DNA of 64,000 bases, from the NCBI GenBank assembly GCA_030077755.1, contig JAQJZZ010000012.1, positions 310,001 to 374,000 of the forward strand, in the 5' to 3' direction. Of the stretch, positions 29,459 to 46,909 are shown piece after piece (position 1 is the first letter of the stretch; each line of letters opens with the position of its first letter). The notes below the pieces were generated by a model. That model ran no database searches, had not been told where the DNA came from, and worked only from the letters and a program-made list of their open reading frames with translations. The position numbers were made by a program, and so were the translations under genes. The DNA comes from Filosporella fistucella (taxonomy: Eukaryota > Ascomycota > Leotiomycetes > Helotiales).

Positions 29459-31377
29459 CGTTCTTTCGATTTTTGGAAAATCCCTATTGAGGAGAGGGTG
29501 AATCCGCTCATTAAGAGTCGCCCCTTCGGTTCTGGGAGAAGATCTCGAATTCGACGCCCTGAGTCAAGCATCGCTCTTTCGATTTTCAGAAAATGTATAT
29601 CCATCAAATGGACAATCCATAGCATTGTTATTGCACTTCATGCTTTGGGAGAAATCCATTGATGATATCCGCTCCACCTGATTTCGATCTTTGATATTTG
29701 GAAAAAGATTCTGAAAATATGGTTAAATCAATATAGCCATAATAATGTATTTGGATATGGGAGAAAATCACCAATGACATCCACAATAACGACATCGTAC
29801 TTTCGATATTTCGAAATTCTTCTCAGAAAGAAGGATAAATCCAGAGCTTGTCATTGCACCTTCGATTTCATGGAGAACGCTCCTGATAGAAGTCGCTGAG
29901 TCTGACATTGTTCTTTGAAACACTGAGAAATATATCCTTGGAAATTGGTGAATTGAAATACTGAAAATGATCCTTTGATCTCAGGAGATCGATGCTAGTG
30001 AGACGAGCGATTTTCAAATCGGTCTTTCCCCTGTATAGATTAGAATATAAATGATATAGATGAATACAGATGCCTATATTGCACCTTTTAATCTGGGAGA
30101 GCTTCATCAAAATCATTGATCAATCCACTTTTATTCTTTCAAGATTGGATATTGGGGATTTGTTGTGTAGATGGACACAGATCCCATGATCGCCCCTCTG
30201 GTACTTGGAAGAATGATTGACTAAATGATTCTCCAATGAAGATGCAAGGATTAATAAAGAATGACACAAGTACCGTGTCAGAAAATGAGTGAAGTAGTTT
30301 TGACAAGAAAAAGTATAAGAAGGCTGAAAATAGGAGAGAAAAAAAGGATTTTGCAGCTTCCTGTTCGTACATTCGATTTGGGGAAGAGCTTCCATTGACC
30401 TGGTGGATGCCCGCAAAATGCGAACTCAATGTTACCTGAATGCTAAAAGCAAAGCTTGAACATAAGAAATTAATATGAAGGAAAGTTGTTATGCCAAAAA
30501 TATATGAAAATGCCAAGCTGTGGTGGTCGTACCTGCGATATCAGGACAGCTGTCTCCTTTCTGTCTCCTGCTTTTGTATTTCCAGTCAAGCGAAGTTTTG
30601 ATTGATATCTGTGAAATAGTCAAATATCAGCCCATGAAAAAATTCGTCAAAACGATCATCATGTCGGGAGATATGAAATACCGAGCCATAGCAGGTCGTA
30701 CCTTCGATAATGGGACAAATACTCCTCTTCTCTTCTCTTCCTCGTGGCTTTCTTCAAATAGGATTAGAGGAAGTCTTCTGTGACCCCTGTGACGCAGAGA
30801 ATGTTAGCATGTATGAAAACATTGTGAACAAAGTTGATGTGTGGTAAAAAATATATACACCAAGATGTCGATCGTACCTTCGATATTGGGAATGCTCCTC
30901 TTCTATTCTCCTCTTCGTGGCTTTCTTCAAATAGGAAGTATTCTGTGGCTCTTTTGACGCAGAGAATGTTAGAATGCATTGAAACATTGGAAAGAAAGCT
31001 GTTGTGTGGAAAGAATATATAATACCAAGATGTTGATCGTACCTTCGATGTTGGGACATATGTTCCTCATCTACATTTCCACGTGGCTATCTCCAAATAC
31101 GATAACCCCTGTGACACAAAGAATATTAACATGTATGAAAAGATTGTGAACGAAGTTGTTGTTTTTAAGAGAGTATATACCACCGGGAGATGTCAGGTCG
31201 TACCTTCGATATTGGACAGATGCTCCTCTTTTTTTCTCCCCCTCCTAGCTTTCTCAAATATGATGACCCCTGTGAGACAAAGAATGTTACCATGTATACA
31301 AGATTGTGAAAAAAGTTGTTGTTTTGGAAGAATATATATATTACTAAGCGATGTCAGATCGTACCTTCGATTTCCGG
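29459..31377 (-). repeat. Array of diverged tandem repeats with a conserved splice-like core
   Basis: On the minus strand the motif CCCAATATCGAAGGTACGATC recurs with variation. Clear copies, given as plus-strand coordinates, are near 31357-31377, 31197-31217, 31035-31055, 30870-30890, 30694-30715, 30526-30546, 30364-30384, 30078-30098, 29852-29873, 29793-29813, 29571-29589, 29517-29537 and 29459-29476. The five or six copies at high coordinates are 160-176 bases apart and share the whole unit. On the minus strand each unit reads like an exon of 65-85 nt ending ATCGAAG, a GTACGA donor, a GCTAACATTCT branch site and a CACAG acceptor. Copies at lower coordinates are 54-59 or about 110 apart and much more diverged. 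Confidence 0.75.
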
Positions 31378-35798: not shown

Positions 35799-38700
35799 AT
35801 GAAGGAACTCGACCCAGAGGACAAGCGTCCTGGTATAGTCAGCGATCAATACGATGGTAAGTTGCTTGTCCTGACTGAAGTCTTGCTAACTTCTTCGACC
35901 AGACGGTACTGCTTCTCGTCATGTTCCTGTTCTTGTTGATAGTGATTTCGTCGCCGATATCGACTTTGAGGGCCTTTCATTATACGAGAAGAAATCCCTT
36001 CTGATCCAACGCGAGCTTGACTCCATGGGTATGGGAAGATATCAATGGTATATATGGTCGCTGTGTGGCCTCGGCTATTTCTTGGACCTGTTGTGGGCGC
36101 AAGCATTTGGCCTCATTGCTACTCCTCTACAGAAGGAGCTCGGATTCAGCGGTATTATGGATTAATTTTCCCATTCTTGTGTCCTGTATGGGGTTAGTAA
36201 GCTTGCTGCTCTTGCTCAGGCGCTAATCACCCTCGGCTCACCCTCGGCTCAGTCGACTCGCCTGAGGAACCTAAGCACCCTGAGCACCCCTGAGCACCCT
36301 GAGCATCCTGAGCAAGATTTACCACATCGTCACGTGTTTTGGCTTCCCGCTTTTTAGCCAATCACACTTGATCTGCCCTCTGTTCTCTCACATCAGTTTT
36401 GTCAAGTTTTGACGACGATGCTCAATTGAACATCGTCGACGACAAGATCTCCACATGTGAAAACTCAGGAGAATGCGAACATCTCGGCGCAGCTAACGCC
36501 ACCAAATCCTCTGAACCATCCCAACCTTTTCCCGTCCAGAAAAGAGCATTTGTAGCTGCCATATCGAGGTTATTCCATTCTTTAGCTCGAAGTCGTCGGT
36601 CTGTAATCGCGGCGTAGCGCCAGAGTATTGAGGTTGGGTGGTAGTGACTTAGGTGATCGTACCAGCGAGGTCGAGTTTCTGTTAGATATGATACTTGGGG
36701 TGTTCCGGAGGCGATGTGGGCGATTAGTGGTGCGAGGCAGAGGGTGGAGAGGAGGATCCATTCTGGGAAGGGGATGCATTGGCTGTTGTATGAGAGGTTA
36801 AGGACGGTGTAGGCCATTATGGATTGGAAGTTCTGCTGTTATTGAAGACAGGGGATTAAAGAAAAAAAGTGACTTACGGAGGAAGGGGCTTTTCTTATCA
36901 TAAAGTATGACTCCAAAATTCCAAATTCATAAAGGTGGTTACATTGAGAAGAGGTGTCGTGGTTGTGGGGCAGTGTTGTGATTGCAGGGGATATGAGGCT
37001 GACCCGTATACACAGCGTATCAAAGCGATGACTATCGAAATCGGGAAACGCTTGAAATAGATAAAGATTTGCGTTAAAAACTCACGGGACATGAGAATTC
37101 GAAGGGAAGATGATTCACCCAAAACACTAGCGTTGAAATCGAAAGGTTCAGATTCGAAAATTTCTATGTATGCTGAACACCATTTCTTAGAACCTCGATT
37201 TGCCAGAAATTTAAAGACCTTAACGGAATCGTTCGCCTTCCATGAAACTTCAAAGACGCTCTCCAACTCCGTATATGCAGAAACAGTAAATACAAGAAGT
37301 AAATATTTGATATCCCTCAGCGCATATGTCCAACGGAAACTCCATAATACTCCATTCTTTCAAAACAGCGAGAAATCTTGAATAATCGCAACCCAAACGC
37401 CTTGCCCGCATGCTGGTTTTGTTTGATTTCGAGTTTCTTTTTCCGGTTTTTTTCTGCTTTTTTTTTCTTTGTTTTCGGTAGGAAATCAACAAGGTGGTCG
37501 TGCCGCTGCGAACGAGAGGTTCCCAGTTCCATCCAATCCTCCATCCTCTCCAACGCCATCTTCCCCTGTGCACAACCCAATCTCGGTGATTGGATTATCT
37601 GGAAAGTTGACGGAGGACTCATCGTGAACGTCATGAGCTCTATCACGTTTCGAAAAAGTGATTTCCTCCATGTCGCCCGTACCCAATTCCGTAAAGCACT
37701 CTAAGATACGGAGGGAATCCAATGAAAGACCTCGTCTTCTCCACTGGCAACACTTCCACAACCGATTTACGGCAGCATCCTTTTTTCCATTCCGTCCATT
37801 TGCAATCTCAGGCCAGCGTTGGTCGACATAATCAACGACTTGTTTGAAGTGAATCCCGTCGTAGGAAGCGAGTTGCTCGAGGTCGAGGTCAACAAGTGGG
37901 GTGAGATGCTGATCCAATCTTCCTGGCGAGCGTGGTCGCAATCCAATGACATCCGCAGCTCGCACCCAGTGAAGGGCACTGCAATCGTTGCAACTTCGAT
38001 GTTCACAGGAGTCATCTAGCGATGGCCATGGTGTACTCCCGTCGGATAAAGGATCGCTTCTATTTCTTCTTCTGCCTGGGTGTCGTTCTGAAGCGCCTAG
38101 AAGACTTGGTCAATTCTGGAAGGCAAACTTGGGTTGGATGGAAATACCATAAGTATGAGTTCCTCCTTTCGTCCTACCTTTCTCCAAAAAACATGGCAAA
38201 TCCAGGATCAGCGAGTTTGAATAGTCCTTCAATCTGTAAAATGTTGCCTGGCTTGAGATCGGTATGCCATCTTCAATGATTAGAACAGCACACGCAAGAT
38301 AAACGGGGTCCAAACTTACCCATAGTGCTCGTTTGCAATCTTACCATTCTCGTCTCCCCAATTATGCAGTTTCTTGATTGCGTCAGCAAGTTCAAAAATA
38401 CTCTTTGTCCAAAAAGCCTCATGGCTCCCTGCCATTCCAGTTCCGATGTCAGGATATCCCAGTGTAGCCACCGATTGGATACCACGATTCCAAGGAGTTG
38501 CCTGCTCGAACCAGACATCATGAGGACGTGGAGAACCACAAACCACCCACGCAGCGGAATAGACGCAGTCCAAAGACCACACATCCACAGACCTCTGCGG
38601 TATGCGAAGAAGATCCCTCAAAACATCTGCACCATCAATGCTGCTAGAATGGACATTCGGTTTGTAAAACCGTTCCATGGAAACTGCGGCAACTGAATCA

Positions 38701-41700
38701 TCATCCCGCACGGAAAATTTGTTGTTGTTTGTGCGGTCAGGTTTCAGGAATGCTAGATCCCTGGGTATGCAGTGGTTTCCTGCCGCTTCGCTCAGAAGAG
38801 AGTGAATGGTGGGTACCTTTGTGCGGCCCCAGGGATTCTTGTGTGCAGATGAGGAGAGGGGAGACTTCCCGAGTTTGGAGAGGCTGTGGAGGAATGTTAG
38901 TATCTGCTGCTATAGCTAGCAAACAACTGATAGCTAAGATGACCGACTATGAAGACTTACTGTCTAGGCAAATGACGGGCTAACAGATCTGGTCTGTGGA
39001 ATACCCGCTCACAGTCCTTAAGGGTACATGGATATGCAGGTTTCTGGTGGCTAAGTTGATGGCGCCTATAAATTCTTAGCAGCTGAGGTAGGTGGGTGCA
39101 AGAAGTCAATGCACCTCAAGTGTTCTGCTCTGGTGAAGGTTTTCACGTGCCGGCATATATCACATGTGTGTACAGGTACCCCTTTTCTGGCTCTACCGAT
39201 GCGACCAGTGACTGGAATATACAGAGGCTTTTCTTCTGCGTTCTTTCCGGAAAGTTGCGCAAACATCTGCTTTGCTTGAGGAACTGATGTCCTTAGGCGG
39301 GAAAGAAGGAGTGCTATGAGTCTAGGCACAGTTAGTTTGACGCTGTCCGGGGCGATTTCTCATGTAAATGAGGTTCCTCACCCGCCAGTACTTGTACCGC
39401 CAATCAGATCAAATAGATCAAGTGCTTCAGGAGTACCCATCAGAGGCTTCCGGCCCATTAGAGCTGCAGACGTGATGGAGAACTTCTCGTCGACGAATCT
39501 GGATCCAGCTGGAGAGTTCGGATATTCGATGACTCCGCCACCAAGGCAGGTGACTTTGAATGTTGAAAGATTCTAACACAGTCAATGATTGGAAGGTTGT
39601 AAAGGTAGATGAGCACTTACCGTTGTTCCACCACCAGCATCGCAAACAATTGTATTCTTCCATTTGAAATCATCAAGATACCTAGAAGACTTGTCAATAG
39701 CCGCATCCGCGTCCCTTTCAGAGTAAACTCGCTGCAAATTATCCCTTCCATTCCTATAACAGAGTCAGTGAATGCCCAGAACAAGACCGAGTATGCATGT
39801 TTTACTTTAAACCTAGACCCAGTTGAGATATACAAGGCTCAGAAATGAAAGATTGAGCACTCCCTGTATCATAGCCGTAGGTAAAAATTCTCTGGTTAGC
39901 TGTATTTTCAATTGGAAGCAGGTCCGCTGGCCAAAATGTCTTTGCATTATTGCTCCAAGTTTTTGAAGAGAGTCCAGCCAATCCATGAACGAGTACAATG
40001 TCAGCCTTTGGATTCGGATCGCTTTGAAAGGCCGTGAGATGGGTCAACGAGCGGTGCCGCTCGTTTTCATGTCTTACCCAGTCCGCCTTTCTCCTGAAAG
40101 ACTTAGACTCCTTAAATTTGGCAGAAGGACAAGCGAAATGCCTGAGGTCTTCTTGGGAATAATTTGTTGTCGAATTAAACTTCCATGGGTCTGGATCAGA
40201 ATAGGACAATAGGGTTGTAACCTTGCCCGAGTGAATCAGGCGTGGTGAATCTGGTTCCGGTGGCTCCAAGCATTCTGATACAAAAGATCTGGGCACTGGC
40301 GGGGCCGAAATATACCCTGGCTTTCGCTCCATGAGATTCTTCTCAAGCGCTGCAATGTCATGATGTGCAAGCGGACACTGCAGAGCATTAGCAAGAAAGC
40401 AAAAAGAACGGATGATACCTACGGGAACTTTTCGACGACAACAAAGATCACAAGATCCAATGCAGCGAATTAAGGCAGTCTTTGCCCTTTGTTCAGGAGT
40501 ATATTTCCTCCTCATGCGGTGAACAGACTTGGTTCCATTGTAGGAAGTTAACTCTCCAGGTACTGTTTCACGACGTGGAACTGATGGATCGTAATCTTCA
40601 TCGAAAGATATCACAGAGGTCAAACTAGTTGACGTGTCATATTCCGACGAGGGTCGAGATCGGTGACTTCTTGACGGAGGCTTCGAGTCAGAGGACTGAG
40701 CGCCTTTGTTTCTCAATCTATCATCCAGTTCCGCAATCAATTGTGCTTCCTTGTAGATCTGATAAAGCCGTGTGGCCTTTCCCAGTTTATCCTTCGGGAT
40801 CATTTGTGGAAAAGGATGAAGCGTTGACGCCAGAGGAGTTCGCAGCTTTGGGGATTGAAGTTCTGGTTTCGAATCGAGTTCTGCAACATCCAACGGTGTG
40901 GGAGGTAAGCTGCAAGGTAGAGGTTCATTTATCAATGACGGTTGATCCCCTGGTGGCAATGGCACAGGATTTTGGTCGTCGTTGAGGTATCGTTCCAGCG
41001 CCAAGCTAGGCTTGTGTTTCGCAAAAGCCTGATCAAGGACCGGAGAATGGGTTCTGCTTCTGTAATTGCTAGACCCCGAAGAGGTCTTGCTGAAGCTCTG
41101 TGAAGAATTCTTGCTCTGCTTTGAAGCGGTGTGCTTCGATTGGCCGTTTCCAATCTTCCGTTGTGGGTCACCACCACCACCGGGATGGTTGTCTTGGTCT
41201 TCATCCTCGTCATAATCGTCGTCGAATTTCTTATCAGATCCCTTGGAATAGAAATCTTCTTCGGCGTGTTCGGCAAGATGATCCATTCTCTCATCCCAAG
41301 ACTGGAATGTTTTTGGGCATCGGTGGCATTGAGTTGGCCAGGCTCCAGCAACGGTATATCTTGACCCAGTCACTGTCGCATCATCATCCACAATCCCATG
41401 TTCTTCTCTGAGATGTTCGATGAAGTGATCCTTTCGACTGAAGACCCTTCCATTAGTCTTTGCATTTGCGCAAACGACGTAGTGCGCACGAAGAATGCCA
41501 AGGTTTTGGAAATGGAGGTTGCAGAATTCGCAGATCGGGTTGTTAAGAGCGGGGTTCGAGAGTGGGCATTCGCAACACATGAATTGGGTTTGGAGGTAAT
41601 GCTTCTTCCCTTCTTCGTGACGTTTCGCATCACCTCGAGTATGAGCAAAGTATCCACATCCTGGTTTGCTGCAAGAGTAATTTGGCTTGTATCCACAATT

Positions 41701-44700
41701 CCGGCAGTCTTTCTTGTGGATGTATTTGGGCTCAGGCGCCTCCGACTCAGCAACCTCTTCTGTTGCAGGAACCTGAATGGAAGACACTGATGTGATATCG
41801 GTGGTATCATCCACCTCGATAGCCTCGGAGTTGGAGATTGAATCAGACCAAGTGCTGGGGATGGTTGCCTCTTCGCTATCAGATGAACTCCCATACATCT
41901 TCTCGCGTTGCATGACGTCCTCCATCTTCTTGATCAAGTCTGCCATCTCACGCTGAGAGATTGGCGAGTATGGTCGTGTCTTGACGGAGTTTCTGAGAAG
42001 ACTCAGAGCTGTTTCTGGATCGACGGCGTCCTCTTGAATCATGTTCCTTGCTGATGAGACTGCAGGCGACATGGTTTGGATTTTGATAGGAACTGGGGTA
42101 TCGTCCCGTCCCATTCTGGAGTTTGTCGATGAAGGAGTCTTTTGTTTTGGTGAGGGACGTGGAGCATTCCTCCGTCTGCGATGATGTTGAGGCTTGGAAA
42201 TCTTCTTGGGGTCTAACATCGAGCCTTCGCGGGATGTCATCAACGCTGCAGGATTGATTCCGGGATTTTGTAGTGACATCGAGTTGGCGATTTCCTCCCA
42301 GTCAAAGTTTCCGAGTGTAGATGATTGCGGTAGAGGCGCTGAGTGATGGCTGCTCTGGTTGAAGATTTGATTGTGCGCATGAGGATTGAGGGGTGCTGCG
42401 AATGGGTGCGTCTGAGTCCCGGAAGCTGCTGAAAAGGAGGGGTGAAATTGAGGGAAGGCTGTTGTATTTTGATAGCCTGAAGGTCCCAGCTGAAACTGAG
42501 GGTTGTTGCCGTTGACTTTGGCCGGGTTAGTCTTTGGAAGTGAGCAATGTTGGGAGCGGATTATCAAGGTACCTGGAGCATCAAGCCCTGGAGAATCGAA
42601 CATTGACATGTCAATGTCTTGCATCATCATGTCTTCATTGAGCCCGGCGAAGCTTTGCTGACTGAAGTTGCCTTGAGAGCCTCCAACAGGGCTATAGTAC
42701 CCGTCAGTTGCATTGGAGGTAGCTGGCTGTAGGAGGGGAAGATGCTGAGGAGATATCATGTGATTTAGCCTCGAGTTGATGTCGTTTCCGTTCGGCGCCT
42801 GGTAAGCCATGACTGGTTGATTGCCAAAGTGAAGGATGATCGATCAGACAAAACAATTCAACTCGAGTCGATGAGTCCTCCGGCGTGCGATCGAGGTCGA
42901 AAGATGTTGGACAGGATGATGTGCCTGGCCGAGATGTTTTAAGAACCCAGGTACTCAGCCGTCAGCATTGCCACGATGGCTTGCACTCAGCCGCGTCTTG
43001 AGGGCGGTGGGCGTGGAGAAGTTGAAAAGGGCTTGAGGTTGCGGGCGACCAATGATGGGATGAGTACAGCCTCAACTGCATCGATAGCGTCGTCGCGAAG
43101 TCGTCGGGCTCCCCATGAAAAGCCTGAAAAGCCTTGCACGTTACCAATTTGCAAAGAATTGTATCTTCTTCAAAAGGGGGATTGAGAATGATAATTGATA
43201 CTATGCTGTTAGTTGGCTTCGCTAGAGTGCTTGCTCTAGAAAGCTCAAGGGGAATGGACCAAAAACTCAGTTGGAAGTGGTCACATGACCTGCTCCAAGG
43301 CTGGTAACGGTAGCATCGTGTGAGAAAGGGGTTGAGACAGAGGTCGGGCCGTCATGAGTTCGCCCAATCGAGAGGGTGAGAATTCCTTTCACGTAGTGGT
43401 TCTTTGCGGAACTGGTAAACAATCCATTTTACCAGACTGCCACCAGGAATCTGCTCTGAACTCCGAACAGGATGCTCCACCTACCTGTCCCAAAGTCCAC
43501 AAGAGCGATAGTTTTGTTTCGAATAAAGTTGATTTCTTGGTTTCGAAAGATCATTGCGATCAACAAGTGATCTCACCCCCGCTTTCATTCTCGCTTCTCC
43601 TCGCTCAAACATCTACTTCACCTCATTATTCCCATCAGCAGCAAGAATACTCTCAACCTTCGACACCTTCTCCGAGAAATGCTGTTTCTTATCCGTTCTA
43701 TTCATCGGTCATCAGCATACTCTATACCCCTTGAAATTGGAGAGAGATCCCACCTTGTTCCCGCTCGAATATCAGTCTGAACTCTCAACACTCCATTCTG
43801 ATGTACAAGAGTGTGCGCTTGCCCAATAACTCGCATTACTTCATCCCATGATCCTTCTGTTCTTCGAATCAGTGTTGCTCTTGAAATTTCTGCATCGCTA
43901 TATGTCCAACTCCAGGGGCAAAGCAACATTGAACGTCTCTCCCTTCTGTCCAGCACGTGATATCAAAAGATCTCAAATGAACATACCAACTGTCGTCCCA
44001 GCACTGTGCATCGAATAGCTCAACCCACTCGCTTTTATAAGTCTCTGTACAGCAGCGACTTCATTCGATACAGAAGCTGTAGGAGTTCCGATCTAGCTTT
44101 GGTTAGAAGGAATCCTGCTGTTCCGGGGATATCAATGTGAAGGTGGGGTACAAACAGGAATGAGGCAGAAATCTGCAACGCAGGATGGTGGTGTAGCGAG
44201 GGATGTGTAGTCCATTTCGTTTGATTGGGAGGGATATGTAGAGGGTAGGAAATAAATCCGATGGATGGAGATGGGGAAATGGGTATGAATGGTTGGCGAC
44301 TTGTTTGTGAATGTCGAACGCTGGCTTACTGGTGTTGAAAAGAACATGTCTATAGTGAATCCATAATGCGTGATGATAGCGCCGCCTTTTTCGATCGGAC
44401 AGCCTCTTCTCTTGTTCGGCTGCTCAACCCCTGTGTATTTACAGTAGTCAAATACGTTGGATTCTCCACTTCCATCTGGGACTTCATACTGCTTGCAATG
44501 ACTGCCGCAGTCCATGGTCATATTGATCGTTGAGTTTGGGCTGATATCTTGCTTGAAGTCACCTGTATCAAGTCAGCAATGCAACAGCTGGGAAGTAAAA
44601 TTGGTAAATTACCATATATATGCACGAAGAGATCATTGTTTCTGGATTCATCAGGGTTAGCTGAAGCGTCTTTTACGATACAGCCTGTTGGTTCACTCAC

Positions 44701-46909
44701 ATATATAGTGGTTGTGGCCACAGCTCCAGGAAGGTGATATTGAAAAGATCTGTCGGGCGGGAGGCGTCGCAAAGTCTGAAAGGTGATCCCCCAGGTATTG
44801 ATGATGGAATTAATTCAGTGTTTGATTTTGCGAAGTCAGTAGGCAAGTACAAGTTCTTATAATAAATAAGTTAGACAATTGCTTAGTAAATAGACATTAT
44901 ATGGTTGAATACGATAACGTTAAATTGGTGTTGTTCGGTAAATTGTAAGGCTGAATCACTAGTCACGTGCTCTGTCACGAGAGGTTCCAAATCTGCTCCG
45001 GCAGGGAGCTCTTGCAAGGGAGCAGAAACGGATTCCTGGGCAAAGTTCGGTATGGAAATTGTAGCCGGGGCACACAGAGGCCAAAATGGGTTCCACATTA
45101 TGGTGCGCAGGCTGACTCAGGGCGTGCTCAGGATGCTCAGGCTCTGCTCAGGCTCTGCTCAGGTTCTGCTCAGGTTCTGCTCAGGTTCTGCTCAGGCATG
45201 CTCAGGCTCGGCTCAGGTATGCTCACCCTCAGCTCAGGTTAAAGCAGCAGTTGCTCACGTCCAGAGACTAAAACGGAACCAGCGAAAGGGAAAATTAATC
45301 CTGAGTCTATGGGTATTTTCTACTGAGATCATGGAAGGGCAAGAGATCTTGGTTTGCTGACAGAGTTCTTCAGATGGGCAGCTCGGAAATATATTTACAG
45401 CGTTCAGTTCTGGACTTACAGCTGGAGCTTTTGTATGGGGTGTGCTGGTGGATATTATTGGTGAGTGTTATCCCTATCTGCTCTCTTCTCCTGGATCAAT
45501 TGGGGTTAATTATTATCAGGTCGTCGTTGGGCGTTCAACGGCACTGTCCTAATTACTTGCATATTTGGTCTTTGCCTCGGTGCCCCAAATACCTATAATG
45601 CGGTGCTTGTCCTTACCGCCTTCAATGGCTTTGGTATTGGAGGAAACATCCCCATCGATACAACTATCTGCCTAGAATTTCTGCCAAAGGTGAGTTGTCC
45701 GCAATATCAAATGACTCCCCTGGCTCACTTTTCTCCAGAACCGTCGATTCTTGCTCGCACTCCTTTCAATATTCCAACCTTTGGGAGTGATAGTCTGCTC
45801 CGGCATTGCTTATGGCTTCATTCCAAGATATTCCTGCCCATCCGACTTACCTTCATGCGGTTCTACTCCTTCAGGAACACCCTGCTGTACCAAATCGTCA
45901 AACTATGGATGGAGATATTTGATGTTCACATTGGGAGGAATTTCGCTCTTCGTTTTCTTCCTTCGTTTTGTGATCTTCAATTTCCAAGAAAGTCCGAAGT
46001 TCTTATTGAGCAAAGGAAAAGACGACCAGGCCTTAATAGTGCTAAACAATGTGGCGAAGACTAATGGCAGAGTCTCAAGTGTGACAATGGAGAGTTTTGA
46101 GATGCTGAGAAGATATGAGGAGAGGAGAAGTGATTCGGGATCTAGTGGAGTTGAGACGAGCATGATTCGAGACAATAGCTCGAAGAGATTTGTGACTGCT
46201 CCTATGCAGAGCGTAAAAGGGGAACTGAAAAGAGTCAGCATTCTATTCTCGACAGCTACGCTTGCAAGATTAACTATCCTGGTCTGGATAATCTATGCTT
46301 TCGACTATTGGGGCTTCTCAGTCGCTGGTAAGCAATCCGAAATTTTCTCGAAATTTTCACTTCGCCTTAGCAGAAAACTCACTGTTAACTCCACCAGGCT
46401 CATTCCTTCCCACCATTCTTGCTCGCAAGAATTCCTCCATCAACGTCTCCATCTCGGAGACCTACCGCGACTATATAATCATCTACACCCCAGGTCTTCT
46501 CGGCGTCGCTCTCGGCGCCCTTCTAATCCAGGTGCCACATGTTGGCAAGAAATACGCCATGCTCGTCTCCAGTGCTCTCATGGCCGTATCGCTCTTCCTC
46601 TTCGCAGCCGTAAACACTCAAGCGAGCAACATCGGTCTCAACACCATGGAATGCTTTTTTCAATCCATGTTCAACGCCATTCTCTACGGTTGGACACCCG
46701 AAGCATTCCCGGCATCGGTCAGAGGGACGGCTAGCGGGATAGCGAGCTTCTGGGGAAGACTGTTTAGTATTTTCTCGCCGCTTATTGCAGCACATCTGCT
46801 TGAAAAAAGTCTGAATGGTCCGTTGTATCTGGCTGGTGCAGGAGTTTTAGTGTGTTGTATTGCTATTCTGGGATTGCCTGGACGAGCGATGGTTCAGGAA
46901 GTAGAATGA
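35799..46909 (+). CDS. MFS transporter (sugar/metabolite type), split by a 9.2-kb intron
   Basis: Exons 35799-35856, 35903-36151, 45374-45460, 45520-45689, 45739-46327 and 46398-46909 join in frame to 554 aa. The frame has no stop, and every junction completes a conserved family sequence: [30 protein letters not shown] then [20 protein letters not shown] across the large intron, [34 protein letters not shown] and [17 protein letters not shown]. Twelve TM segments can be traced, so this should be a plasma-membrane symporter of unknown substrate. Intron 2 (36152-45373, 9222 nt) contains other genes on the opposite strand and is far beyond the usual intron length here. Whether it is still spliced is the key question. 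Confidence 0.85.
36214..36314 (+). repeat. Left boundary repeat array (CTCAGG / CCTGAGC)
   Basis: Contains one GCTCAGG, two copies of an 11-base unit CACCCTCGGCT, and then four to five copies of CCTGAGC spaced 9-10 bases. The last two copies form half of the 17-bp inverted match with the right array. The 11-base unit also recurs at the right end as GCTCACCCTCAGCTCAG, in direct orientation. Confidence 0.8.
36422..36843 (-). pseudogene. Fragment of a fungal membrane protein
   Basis: The frame opens after a CAG acceptor near 36844 ([19 protein letters not shown]) and runs through a hydrophobic segment ([19 protein letters not shown]). The conserved-looking stretch [33 protein letters not shown] and then [13 protein letters not shown] follow. 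It resembles a widespread family of uncharacterised fungal integral membrane proteins in which this stretch lies mid-protein. It stops at 36422, just inside the left repeat array, before the further TM segments expected of the family. The upstream exon would end at the GTAAGTCAC near 36880. Treated as a truncated copy inside the insertion. Confidence 0.45.
36898..38100 (-). other. Fragmentary coding-like sequence inside the insertion
   Basis: Two minus-strand open stretches, 37486-37965 ([28 protein letters not shown] and [17 protein letters not shown]) and 36898-37266 ([20 protein letters not shown]), have protein-like composition but no family match. They lack clear starts, and I could not join them to each other or to neighbours. 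A poly-T/TTTC-rich tract near 37430-37480 separates them. They may be exons of a captured gene. Confidence 0.3.
38160..38711 (-). pseudogene. Protein-kinase domain fragments in permuted order
   Basis: The upstream piece (38711-38320) contains [21 protein letters not shown], which matches kinase subdomain IX (DVWSLGCVxSE). Later in the same exon, [13 protein letters not shown] matches helix E. After an intron (GTAAGT...GAAG, 38319 to about 38279) the frame reads [15 protein letters not shown] and [11 protein letters not shown]. These are the catalytic loop (HRD changed to HTD) and the metal-binding loop (DFG changed to DPG). A one-base frame change in a T run leads into TKGGTHTYG, the activation loop. 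Subdomain IX thus precedes the catalytic loop, the reverse of a normal kinase. The piece is broken and permuted, and no N-lobe was found. Confidence 0.55.
39066..39553 (-). pseudogene. Patatin-like phospholipase fragment fused to a C2H2-like stub
   Basis: Exon 39553-39382 ends [24 protein letters not shown]...TAG intron joins it to 39321-39066, which starts [20 protein letters not shown]. This reproduces the patatin nucleophile elbow (GxSxG within GGTSTGG) and the helix after it (GLIAIMLGRLRM in relatives). Upstream, the expected DGGGxRG oxyanion motif appears only as LGGGVIEYP, and downstream the catalytic Asp region is missing. Instead the frame runs into [20 protein letters not shown], a damaged C2H2 finger, and stops. 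Only the start of a patatin domain is present, so lipase activity is not expected. Confidence 0.6.
39621..39754 (-). pseudogene. HSP70-like ATPase fragment exon
   Basis: One exon-like segment bounded by a TTATAG acceptor and a GTAAGT donor reads [19 protein letters not shown] then [20 protein letters not shown]. The VCDAGGGT core matches phosphate-binding loop 2 of the actin/HSP70 ATPase fold as found in fungal HSP70-like proteins. Nothing else of an HSP70 is recognisable nearby. Its splice sites would join it to the patatin-like exon on one side and to the hydrolase fragment on the other. Confidence 0.5.
39802..42810 (-). CDS. Chimeric frame: C2H2 zinc-finger protein joined to a truncated alpha/beta hydrolase
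   Basis: Long frame from the ATG at 42810. A 45-nt in-frame segment (40422-40378, GTAGGT...GCTAAT...CTGCAG) is probably an intron. Residues 1-350 are Asn/Gln/Ser-rich, as in many fungal regulators. Cys/His clusters follow: [45 protein letters not shown] and [22 protein letters not shown] final half-finger reads [17 protein letters not shown], after which relatives normally have further fingers. Here the sequence changes abruptly to [19 protein letters not shown] and FWPADLLP, the start of a DUF676/SesB-like hydrolase, and ends soon after YGYDTG, without the catalytic Ser elbow. The C-terminus is clearly a fusion of two truncated genes. Confidence 0.65.
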   Translation of the reverse strand: MAYQAPNGNDINSRLNHMISPQHLPLLQPATSNATDGYYSPVGGSQGNFSQQSFAGLNEDMMMQDIDMSMFDSPGLDAPGTLIIRSQHCSLPKTNPAKVNGNNPQFQLGPSGYQNTTAFPQFHPSFSAASGTQTHPFAAPLNPHAHNQIFNQSSHHSAPLPQSSTLGNFDWEEIANSMSLQNPGINPAALMTSREGSMLDPKKISKPQHHRRRRNAPRPSPKQKTPSSTNSRMGRDDTPVPIKIQTMSPAVSSARNMIQEDAVDPETALSLLRNSVKTRPYSPISQREMADLIKKMEDVMQREKMYGSSSDSEEATIPSTWSDSISNSEAIEVDDTTDITSVSSIQVPATEEVAESEAPEPKYIHKKDCRNCGYKPNYSCSKPGCGYFAHTRGDAKRHEEGKKHYLQTQFMCCECPLSNPALNNPICEFCNLHFQNLGILRAHYVVCANAKTNGRVFSRKDHFIEHLREEHGIVDDDATVTGSRYTVAGAWPTQCHRCPKTFQSWDERMDHLAEHAEEDFYSKGSDKKFDDDYDEDEDQDNHPGGGGDPQRKIGNGQSKHTASKQSKNSSQSFSKTSSGSSNYRSRTHSPVLDQAFAKHKPSLALERYLNDDQNPVPLPPGDQPSLINEPLPCSLPPTPLDVAELDSKPELQSPKLRTPLASTLHPFPQMIPKDKLGKATRLYQIYKEAQLIAELDDRLRNKGAQSSDSKPPSRSHRSRPSSEYDTSTSLTSVISFDEDYDPSVPRRETVPGELTSYNGTKSVHRMRRKYTPEQRAKTALIRCIGSCDLCCRRKVPVGIIRSFCFLANALQCPLAHHDIAALEKNLMERKPGYISAPPVPRSFVSECLEPPEPDSPRLIHSGKVTTLLSYSDPDPWKFNSTTNYSQEDLRHFACPSAKFKESKSFRRKADWVRHENERHRSLTHLTAFQSDPNPKADIVLVHGLAGLSSKTWSNNAKTFWPADLLPIENTANQRIFTYGYDTGSAQSFISEPCISQLGLGLK
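42811..43612. other. Upstream region of the zinc-finger frame within the insertion
   Basis: Between the C2H2 start codon and the ECM15 stop codon. Short frames on both strands are unsupported. The part after 43350 contains ECM15 3' flank. Confidence 0.45.
43613..44215 (-). CDS. ECM15: ECM15 / UPF0045 (MTH1187-like) thiamine-binding-fold protein
   Basis: Four exons (44215-44156, 44092-43987, 43856-43754, 43697-43613) join in frame to 117 aa. The chain reads [78 protein letters not shown] and a short C-terminal helix. This is the full length and all conserved blocks of the UPF0045 family (ferredoxin-like fold, small tetramers; some members bind thiamine or its analogues). Yeast ECM15 is about the same size. 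It is the only complete, apparently functional gene in the insertion. Its promoter and start overlap the intron-like tail of the adjacent ML-domain fragment. Confidence 0.85.
44330..44790 (-). pseudogene. ML-domain (NPC2 / PG-PI transfer protein-like) fragment
   Basis: Exons on the minus strand read [28 protein letters not shown], then [10 protein letters not shown], then [18 protein letters not shown] and [19 protein letters not shown]. This follows the ML lipid-binding fold of fungal phosphatidylglycerol/phosphatidylinositol transfer proteins (CDxSxPTDLxNITxVDLxPNPP at the start, CPLEKG in the middle). The signal-peptide exon is missing upstream and the last strand with its PGxYxVxAD motif is missing downstream. 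Splice sites between the visible exons are canonical. The gene is therefore cut at both ends, with the right repeat array lying about 325 bases upstream of its break. Confidence 0.6.
45115..45240 (+). repeat. Right boundary repeat array, 11-bp unit GGYTCTGCTCA
   Basis: About ten GCTCAGG cores in a row, mostly 11 bases apart (units GGCTCTGCTCA and GGTTCTGCTCA), degenerating to GGCATGCTCA and CCCTCAGCTCA at the outer edge. It lies between the ML-domain fragment and the continuing MFS intron. Confidence 0.85.

Follow-up and report, generated by a model that had tools for sequence, protein, structure and literature searches.

A likely non-autonomous cargo element with Starship-type ends at the 5′ splice donor of an MFS transporter intron

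Starships are transposons of the Pezizomycotina in which proteins of the DUF3435 family are the captains, and Cryptons are tyrosine-recombinase elements with short direct repeats. Starships have been described as giant and captain-bearing. An A. fumigatus study gives their size as about 20 to 700 kb, states that every Starship has a captain, and reports direct repeats of 2 to 12 bp in 19 of 20 elements and inverted repeats in 18 of 20; its pipeline, at least, discards elements shorter than 15 kb as captain indels (PMC12153272). A Verticillium paper counts Starship regions regardless of the recombinase gene (PMC12289983). Among the titles and abstract openings returned by our literature searches, no publication on captainless Starship-type elements was found. 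In the same material, a Sanctuary paper deals with a non-autonomous element inside a Starship, and "nonautonomous" in a Fusarium paper refers to mimp elements; a search combining Starship with Helotiales returned nothing. Other described systems share single features with the locus studied here. ToxTA has TA target duplications and is likely Tc1/Mariner (PMC12506042), and introner families have median lengths of 30 to 654 nt and create new introns (PMC9860276).

The window is the whole stretch of DNA that we analyzed, 64,000 nt long (C11:310001-374000, in an assembly of 45.77 Mb and 19 contigs). The best explanation of its split transporter gene, and one that we consider probable, is that a non-autonomous cargo element with Starship-type ends was recently inserted, in a site-specific manner, at the GTATT donor of a 61-nt MFS intron. 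Like Starships, the window element has short direct repeats that reflect the target, inverted repeats near its ends and cargo genes, and its family's ends show homology to the ends of a 191-kb element on contig C9 that bears a captain-like gene, although the outermost bases differ. Starships, however, combine a captain with large size, whereas in the small elements described here no captain was found and the lengths are 0.6 to 17.3 kb (9.2 kb in the window). Because they depart from Starships in these two features, we do not file the small elements as Starships; they look like non-autonomous relatives. ToxhAT and ToxTA resemble the window element in being short, gene-carrying and presumably mobilized by an enzyme that another locus encodes, but the TA target of ToxTA differs from the GTATT-like target and Starship-type ends seen here. 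With introners the element shares a border that is also a splice site, the donor lying within the target repeat. Introners make new introns, whereas in the window an existing intron was most likely enlarged, and by a far longer element; across the six other insertion sites that we reconstructed, the introner pattern of many copies forming introns at splice sites was not found. The likeness to Cryptons lies in the short direct repeats.

Conceptual splicing of the MFS gene joined six exons in phase into 554 codons with zero stops, the putative exon limits being picked by eye from GT..AG borders and homology. Exons 2 and 3 are separated by a gap of 9222 nt (36152-45373 of the window) that has GT..AG borders and keeps the phase, which bears out the preliminary description of an otherwise intact gene split at this point; the remaining four introns measure 46, 59, 49 and 70 nt. 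The joined protein is 81% identical to a Mollisiaceae protein over 99% of the length and 87% identical to a Mollisia scopiformis protein over 92%, and it matches both Pfam MFS_1 and Sugar_tr over the cut-off. The nearest homologues of the transporter belong to Mollisiaceae, which makes a helotialean host probable. When it was aligned with 39 homologues, the 40 best less the longest (P0020), it deviated at 2 of 172 strongly conserved columns, compared with 0 to 11 for eight homologues treated in the same way. We also observed that P0002, an MFS protein of M. scopiformis, has two additional residues, GI, precisely at the exon junction that bears the insertion; these possibly reflect conservation of GGTAT at the donor, or else a splice site annotated in the wrong position.

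Our analyses revealed that the gap begins at exactly the base where the left end of a dispersed repeat family begins, and that the right terminus of this family falls at 45317. This coincidence of borders is beyond chance. With a query of 321 bases at the left border, the second genomic match starts at 36151. The family termini and the GTATT tips thus resolve the gap into one element (36152-45317) and 56 nt of ordinary intron (Table 1). Once one unit is removed, what stays behind is an ordinary intron of 61 nt; the insertion therefore occupies the 5′ splice donor, and the left tip of the element supplies that donor anew. The preliminary description had placed an insertion inside an intron and taken it to be either very young or still spliced; an insertion, and one that is young or spliced, is what we find, with its position refined to the 5′ splice site itself and the donor restored. 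Coding sequence does lie inside the gap, as that description also held, but it is the cargo of a mobile element, and the genes are "nested" in the intron only in a positional sense.

Table 1. Features of the split MFS gene and of the element within it (positions in the window)
Feature	Position	Strand	Basis or remark
MFS exon 1 (start codon)	35799..35856	+	conceptual splicing
MFS exon 2, closing with ..LQKELGFS plus G of the split codon	35903..36151	+	conceptual splicing, homologues
Inserted mobile element, 9166 bp, Starship-type ends, no captain found	36152..45317	+	termini common to other copies
Left direct repeat GTATT, doubling as 5′ splice donor of the host intron	36152..36156	+	
Left terminal module, common to other copies, partly to the 191-kb C9 element	36152..36425	+	BLAST: module bases 41-148, 242-268
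Left arm, subterminal inverted repeat GGATTAATTTTCCC..	36159..36176	+	I3, 18 nt, 94%
Left subterminal array, unit CCTGAGCAC	36261..36314	+	
Cargo region, short or exon-like frames only	36426..39800	-	
Cargo open frame, 1013 aa	39805..42843	-	7 homologues, 34-55% identity; none with a precomputed Pfam domain
Right terminal module, common to other copies; inner limit copy-dependent	44846..45317	+	
Right subterminal array, TGCTCAGG-type units, running opposite to the left array	45116..45239	+	
Right arm, subterminal inverted repeat	45284..45301	+	I3
Right direct repeat GTATT	45313..45317	+	
Leftover host intron, 56 nt: branch-site-like GCTGAC (45356-45361), CAG acceptor	45318..45373	+	
MFS exon 3, opening with DGQLGNIF	45374..45460	+	conceptual splicing
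MFS exon 4	45520..45689	+	conceptual splicing
MFS exon 5	45739..46327	+	conceptual splicing
MFS exon 6 (stop codon)	46398..46909	+	conceptual splicing

When the whole 9222-bp gap was used as query, at least 45 match rows were obtained in the genome. One is the window itself; outside it, at least 16 rows match the left end, at a minimum of 14 places, at least 26 match the right end, at a minimum of 22 places, and at least 2 match the interior. Some of these places are short, C9:2482379 consisting of left-module bases 226-274 only and C7:2719879 of part of the right array only. The left ends of the family start at the equivalent of 36152, and the right ends finish at 45317 or a few bases from it. 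Both tips could be read in six other small elements, namely those of 4.5 kb on C7, 15.8, 3.6 and 3.4 kb on C12, 17.3 kb on C16 and 0.6 kb on C9; two more pairings with one end incomplete (C12:1631678-1635213 and C14:983092-989924) were not counted. Among the tips compared (window included, several positions being extrapolated from partial matches), GTAYY is present at 6 of 10 on the left and 12 of 15 on the right, and exact GTATT at 5 of 10 and 8 of 15, respectively. The two tips of a copy are unequal in five of the six other elements (GTACC/GTATT, GTATT/GTACT, GTATT/GAATT, ATATT/GTATT and the degenerate 0.6-kb copy), and therefore do not represent a clean duplication. At C12:814249-833611 (L033-L035), two cargo elements are arranged in tandem, head to tail, and a single GTATT serves both. 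An exact search with the left-tip pattern returned the window copy alone, a result of little weight for divergent copies. No near-identical copy was found in the genome, the best ends being 89-93% identical; the case for recency thus rests on the intact host gene.

The cargo consists of kinase and TPR proteins in the 15.8-kb C12 copy, a HET protein in the 3.4-kb C12 copy, a GH3 enzyme, a rhamnosidase and a sugar transporter in the C16 copy, and an ankyrin and kinase protein in the incompletely paired C14 element; the longest frames of the 4.5-kb C7 and 3.6-kb C12 copies gave no Pfam match. We compared seven bodies trimmed of their ends, those of the window element, five of the six paired copies and one incompletely paired element, leaving out the almost bodiless 0.6-kb copy. 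By blastn, 1 of 21 pairs matched (C16 with C7, over 79 nt that are perhaps an end remnant), and by tblastx 2 of 21 (C16 with C7, and the 15.8-kb C12 copy with C14, which have a kinase type in common). Nearly all of the interiors are unrelated to each other. A family left end is also present at C17:1433802 (L053), where no right end was found and a methyltransferase frame lies ∼0.65 kb inward.

Six insertion sites besides that of the window were reconstructed by rejoining the flanks with one, two or no repeat copies. The flanks of the C9 giant element rebuild the frame of a sugar-transporter exon, and those of the C16 element a frame without a Pfam match, 340 codons long when one copy is kept, 279 when two are and 92 when none is. 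At the C7 site a host exon frame is probably rebuilt: one copy gives 156 codons with a DUF3433 match, 156 codons also result from the two-copy control, through a different left frame, and 129 from the join without a copy. The site of the 0.6-kb C9 copy yields 119 codons versus 85 and 93 in the controls, an ambiguous result. No host frame was recovered at the site of the 3.4-kb C12 copy (48 versus 51 and 53 codons) or at that of the head-to-tail C12 pair (68 versus 52 and 88). We therefore rejected splice-site targeting as a rule of the family, with the C9 giant and the C16 element in exons, the C7 element probably so, and two C12 sites lacking a host frame. At none of these six was a splice site demonstrated, and the insertion at a donor is that of the window. 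Counting both strands, the window contains 149 copies of GTATT and 43 of GGTATT, and so landing on a copy that forms a donor needs no special mechanism.

Whole-genome family searches, performed with PF11917 and PF12520 only, returned 12 matches to DUF3435 (PF11917) at 6 places, with none on C11 or in the six other paired small elements (0.6-17.3 kb). One match, at C9:2159118-2159471, lies within a match to the family's left end and reads inward, ∼1.9 kb from the tip; a right-end match is found 191 kb away in equal orientation. The outer flanks of these two ends are the halves of one sugar-transporter gene, which join in frame and give a Sugar_tr match with the right-end version of the repeat, whereas the left-end version breaks the frame. 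Thus, both ends belong to one element of 191,312 bp with tips at C9:2161363 and C9:1970052. A weaker DUF3435-matching piece begins ∼1.5 kb from its left tip. The DUF3435 score is modest: two pieces scanned by themselves score 22.1 and 16.0 bits, below the cut-off of 25.8, and 36.2 bits are reached together with neighbors. Farther out, from ∼0.74 kb, two open stretches presumed to be captain exons gave no Pfam match, which makes the start of the captain-like gene uncertain. A stop codon divides two of the presumed open stretches, and the gene may be broken. The element, Starship-like in its anatomy, also contains, at C9:2087168-2088767, one of the six DUF3723 regions of the genome.

In BLAST comparisons, the C9 giant matches the left end of the window element with 78% identity over 109 bp, namely module bases 41-148, and over a second stretch of 27 bp with 89%, and its right end with 75% over 152 bp; BLAST detected no likeness in the outermost 40 bases of the element's left end. 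An alignment matches up much of the left module. Both types of tip have a common layout, with a direct repeat, a short spacer and an inverted repeat on the left and a longer spacer on the right. Their cores differ, GTATT being combined with GATTAATTTTCCC in the family of the window element and GGCAGTTG with CAACTTTT in the C9 giant. We suggest from this layout that the GTATT and GGCAGTTG tips may be two tip types of one recombination system. Given the different GGCAGTTG-type tips and the unlike outermost 40 left bases, the C9 captain may not act on the GTATT family.

A captain within the small elements was rejected, as neither the DUF3435 search nor tblastn gave one. The DUF3435 genes on C15 (1661650), C10 and C5 were rejected as owners of GTATT ends; no end match below E 0.03 was present in the ∼0.9-1.3 kb inspected upstream of each of these three genes. 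DUF3435 matches are also located at C15:1672815 and C9:4320062. No captain with GTATT tips was found in this genome. At C15:1661650-1683104, C10:1571414-1621075 and C5:1254-57347, DUF3435 matches lie ∼9-53 kb from DUF3723 genes, a proximity that makes further Starships in the genome likely.

Under the explanation that we favor, site-specific recombination would have inserted the window element at a GTATT that was the 5′ splice donor of the 61-nt intron, and the donor would already have read GTATT beforehand. The enzyme mobilizing the small elements would be a DUF3435 captain encoded at another place, which would act in trans by recombination between the short core repeat of the elements and a GTATT-like target. 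The insertion would be young, as judged from one assembly. Alternatively, the small elements, with the same ends and target, could be what is left of full Starships whose interiors were lost in situ, and be immobile themselves, which we regard as unlikely. The inner point at which copies diverge from the common left module varies from copy to copy, as internal deletions would yield, and the Verticillium study cited above reports Starship regions irrespective of the recombinase gene. However, four pieces of the captain-like gene on C9, used as tblastn queries, had no matching fragment in the window or at loci L032-L051, the tandem pair has its single common GTATT, and the window element keeps an intact frame of 1013 codons, all of which argue against remnants.

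Insertion at the donor site is compatible with a further claim, that the 9.2-kb gap is a working long intron from which the element is spliced out and MFS protein made; we consider this addition improbable. The donor GTATTA, the branch-site-like GCTGAC and the CAG acceptor are all in place, and because the donor is restored at the left tip while the branch and acceptor sites lie outside the element, splicing across 9.2 kb is possible in principle. The reading phase is preserved and no decay is seen in the coding sequence, which fits a recent insertion or continued splicing. Against a long intron stand the lengths of the other introns of the gene (46-70 nt), and intact halves need no splicing to persist: the C9 sugar transporter, split within an exon by 191 kb and thus beyond rescue by splicing, has downstream open stretches of 279 and 297 codons. 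The integrity of the two halves is therefore no proof of splicing. A young insertion is the simpler reading, and the transporter gene is more likely to be at present disrupted or weakly expressed.

An unrelated cut-and-paste DNA transposon, with short inverted repeats, a 5-bp target duplication and only a chance likeness to the C9 borders, appears distinctly improbable. The short subterminal inverted repeats and 5-bp repeat are as it would have them, and the outermost bases of the C9 tips do differ; but the 5-bp core is near-constant across sites while often unequal within one copy, and on C9 the end matches fall directly at the edges of an element that interrupts a single host gene. An assembly error that joined two loci can be practically dismissed, even with evidence from one assembly only, since both borders are termini of the same family in the correct orientation with GTATT at each, and the flanks are one gene.

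A wider interpretation, which goes beyond the preferred explanation and which we offer as speculative and rather doubtful, is that these elements form a family of captainless "mini-Starships," in which end modules surround exchangeable host-type genes and a captain would move them in trans to GTATT-like targets, with donor-restoring insertions hiding the cargo in introns while the host gene works. If captainless Starship-type elements do carry genes in trans, the reach of the system has been underestimated. The GTATT and GGCAGTTG tip types provide natural material on how captains recognize ends and targets, and the donor-site insertion offers a clean natural test of maximal intron length in ascomycetes.

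The 1013-codon cargo frame of the window element gave no Pfam match at E 0.01, and one of its seven homologues has a name (Bisporella); its best-scoring other protein match in the genome is 36% identical. The two ORFs scanned in the neighboring cargo region of short frames likewise gave no Pfam match. That the cargo has a recent copy at another place in the genome was rejected, as the matches listed were the distant protein matches and two interior DNA matches, the latter at C12:1290160-1290393 and 1290630-1290744 (71-82% identity). Window positions 43626-44095 are the part similar to this C12 region (C12:1290160-1290744), a possible relative of the cargo. Elsewhere in the window, positions 30696-31371 are tandemly repeated, the period being 165 or 322 bases.
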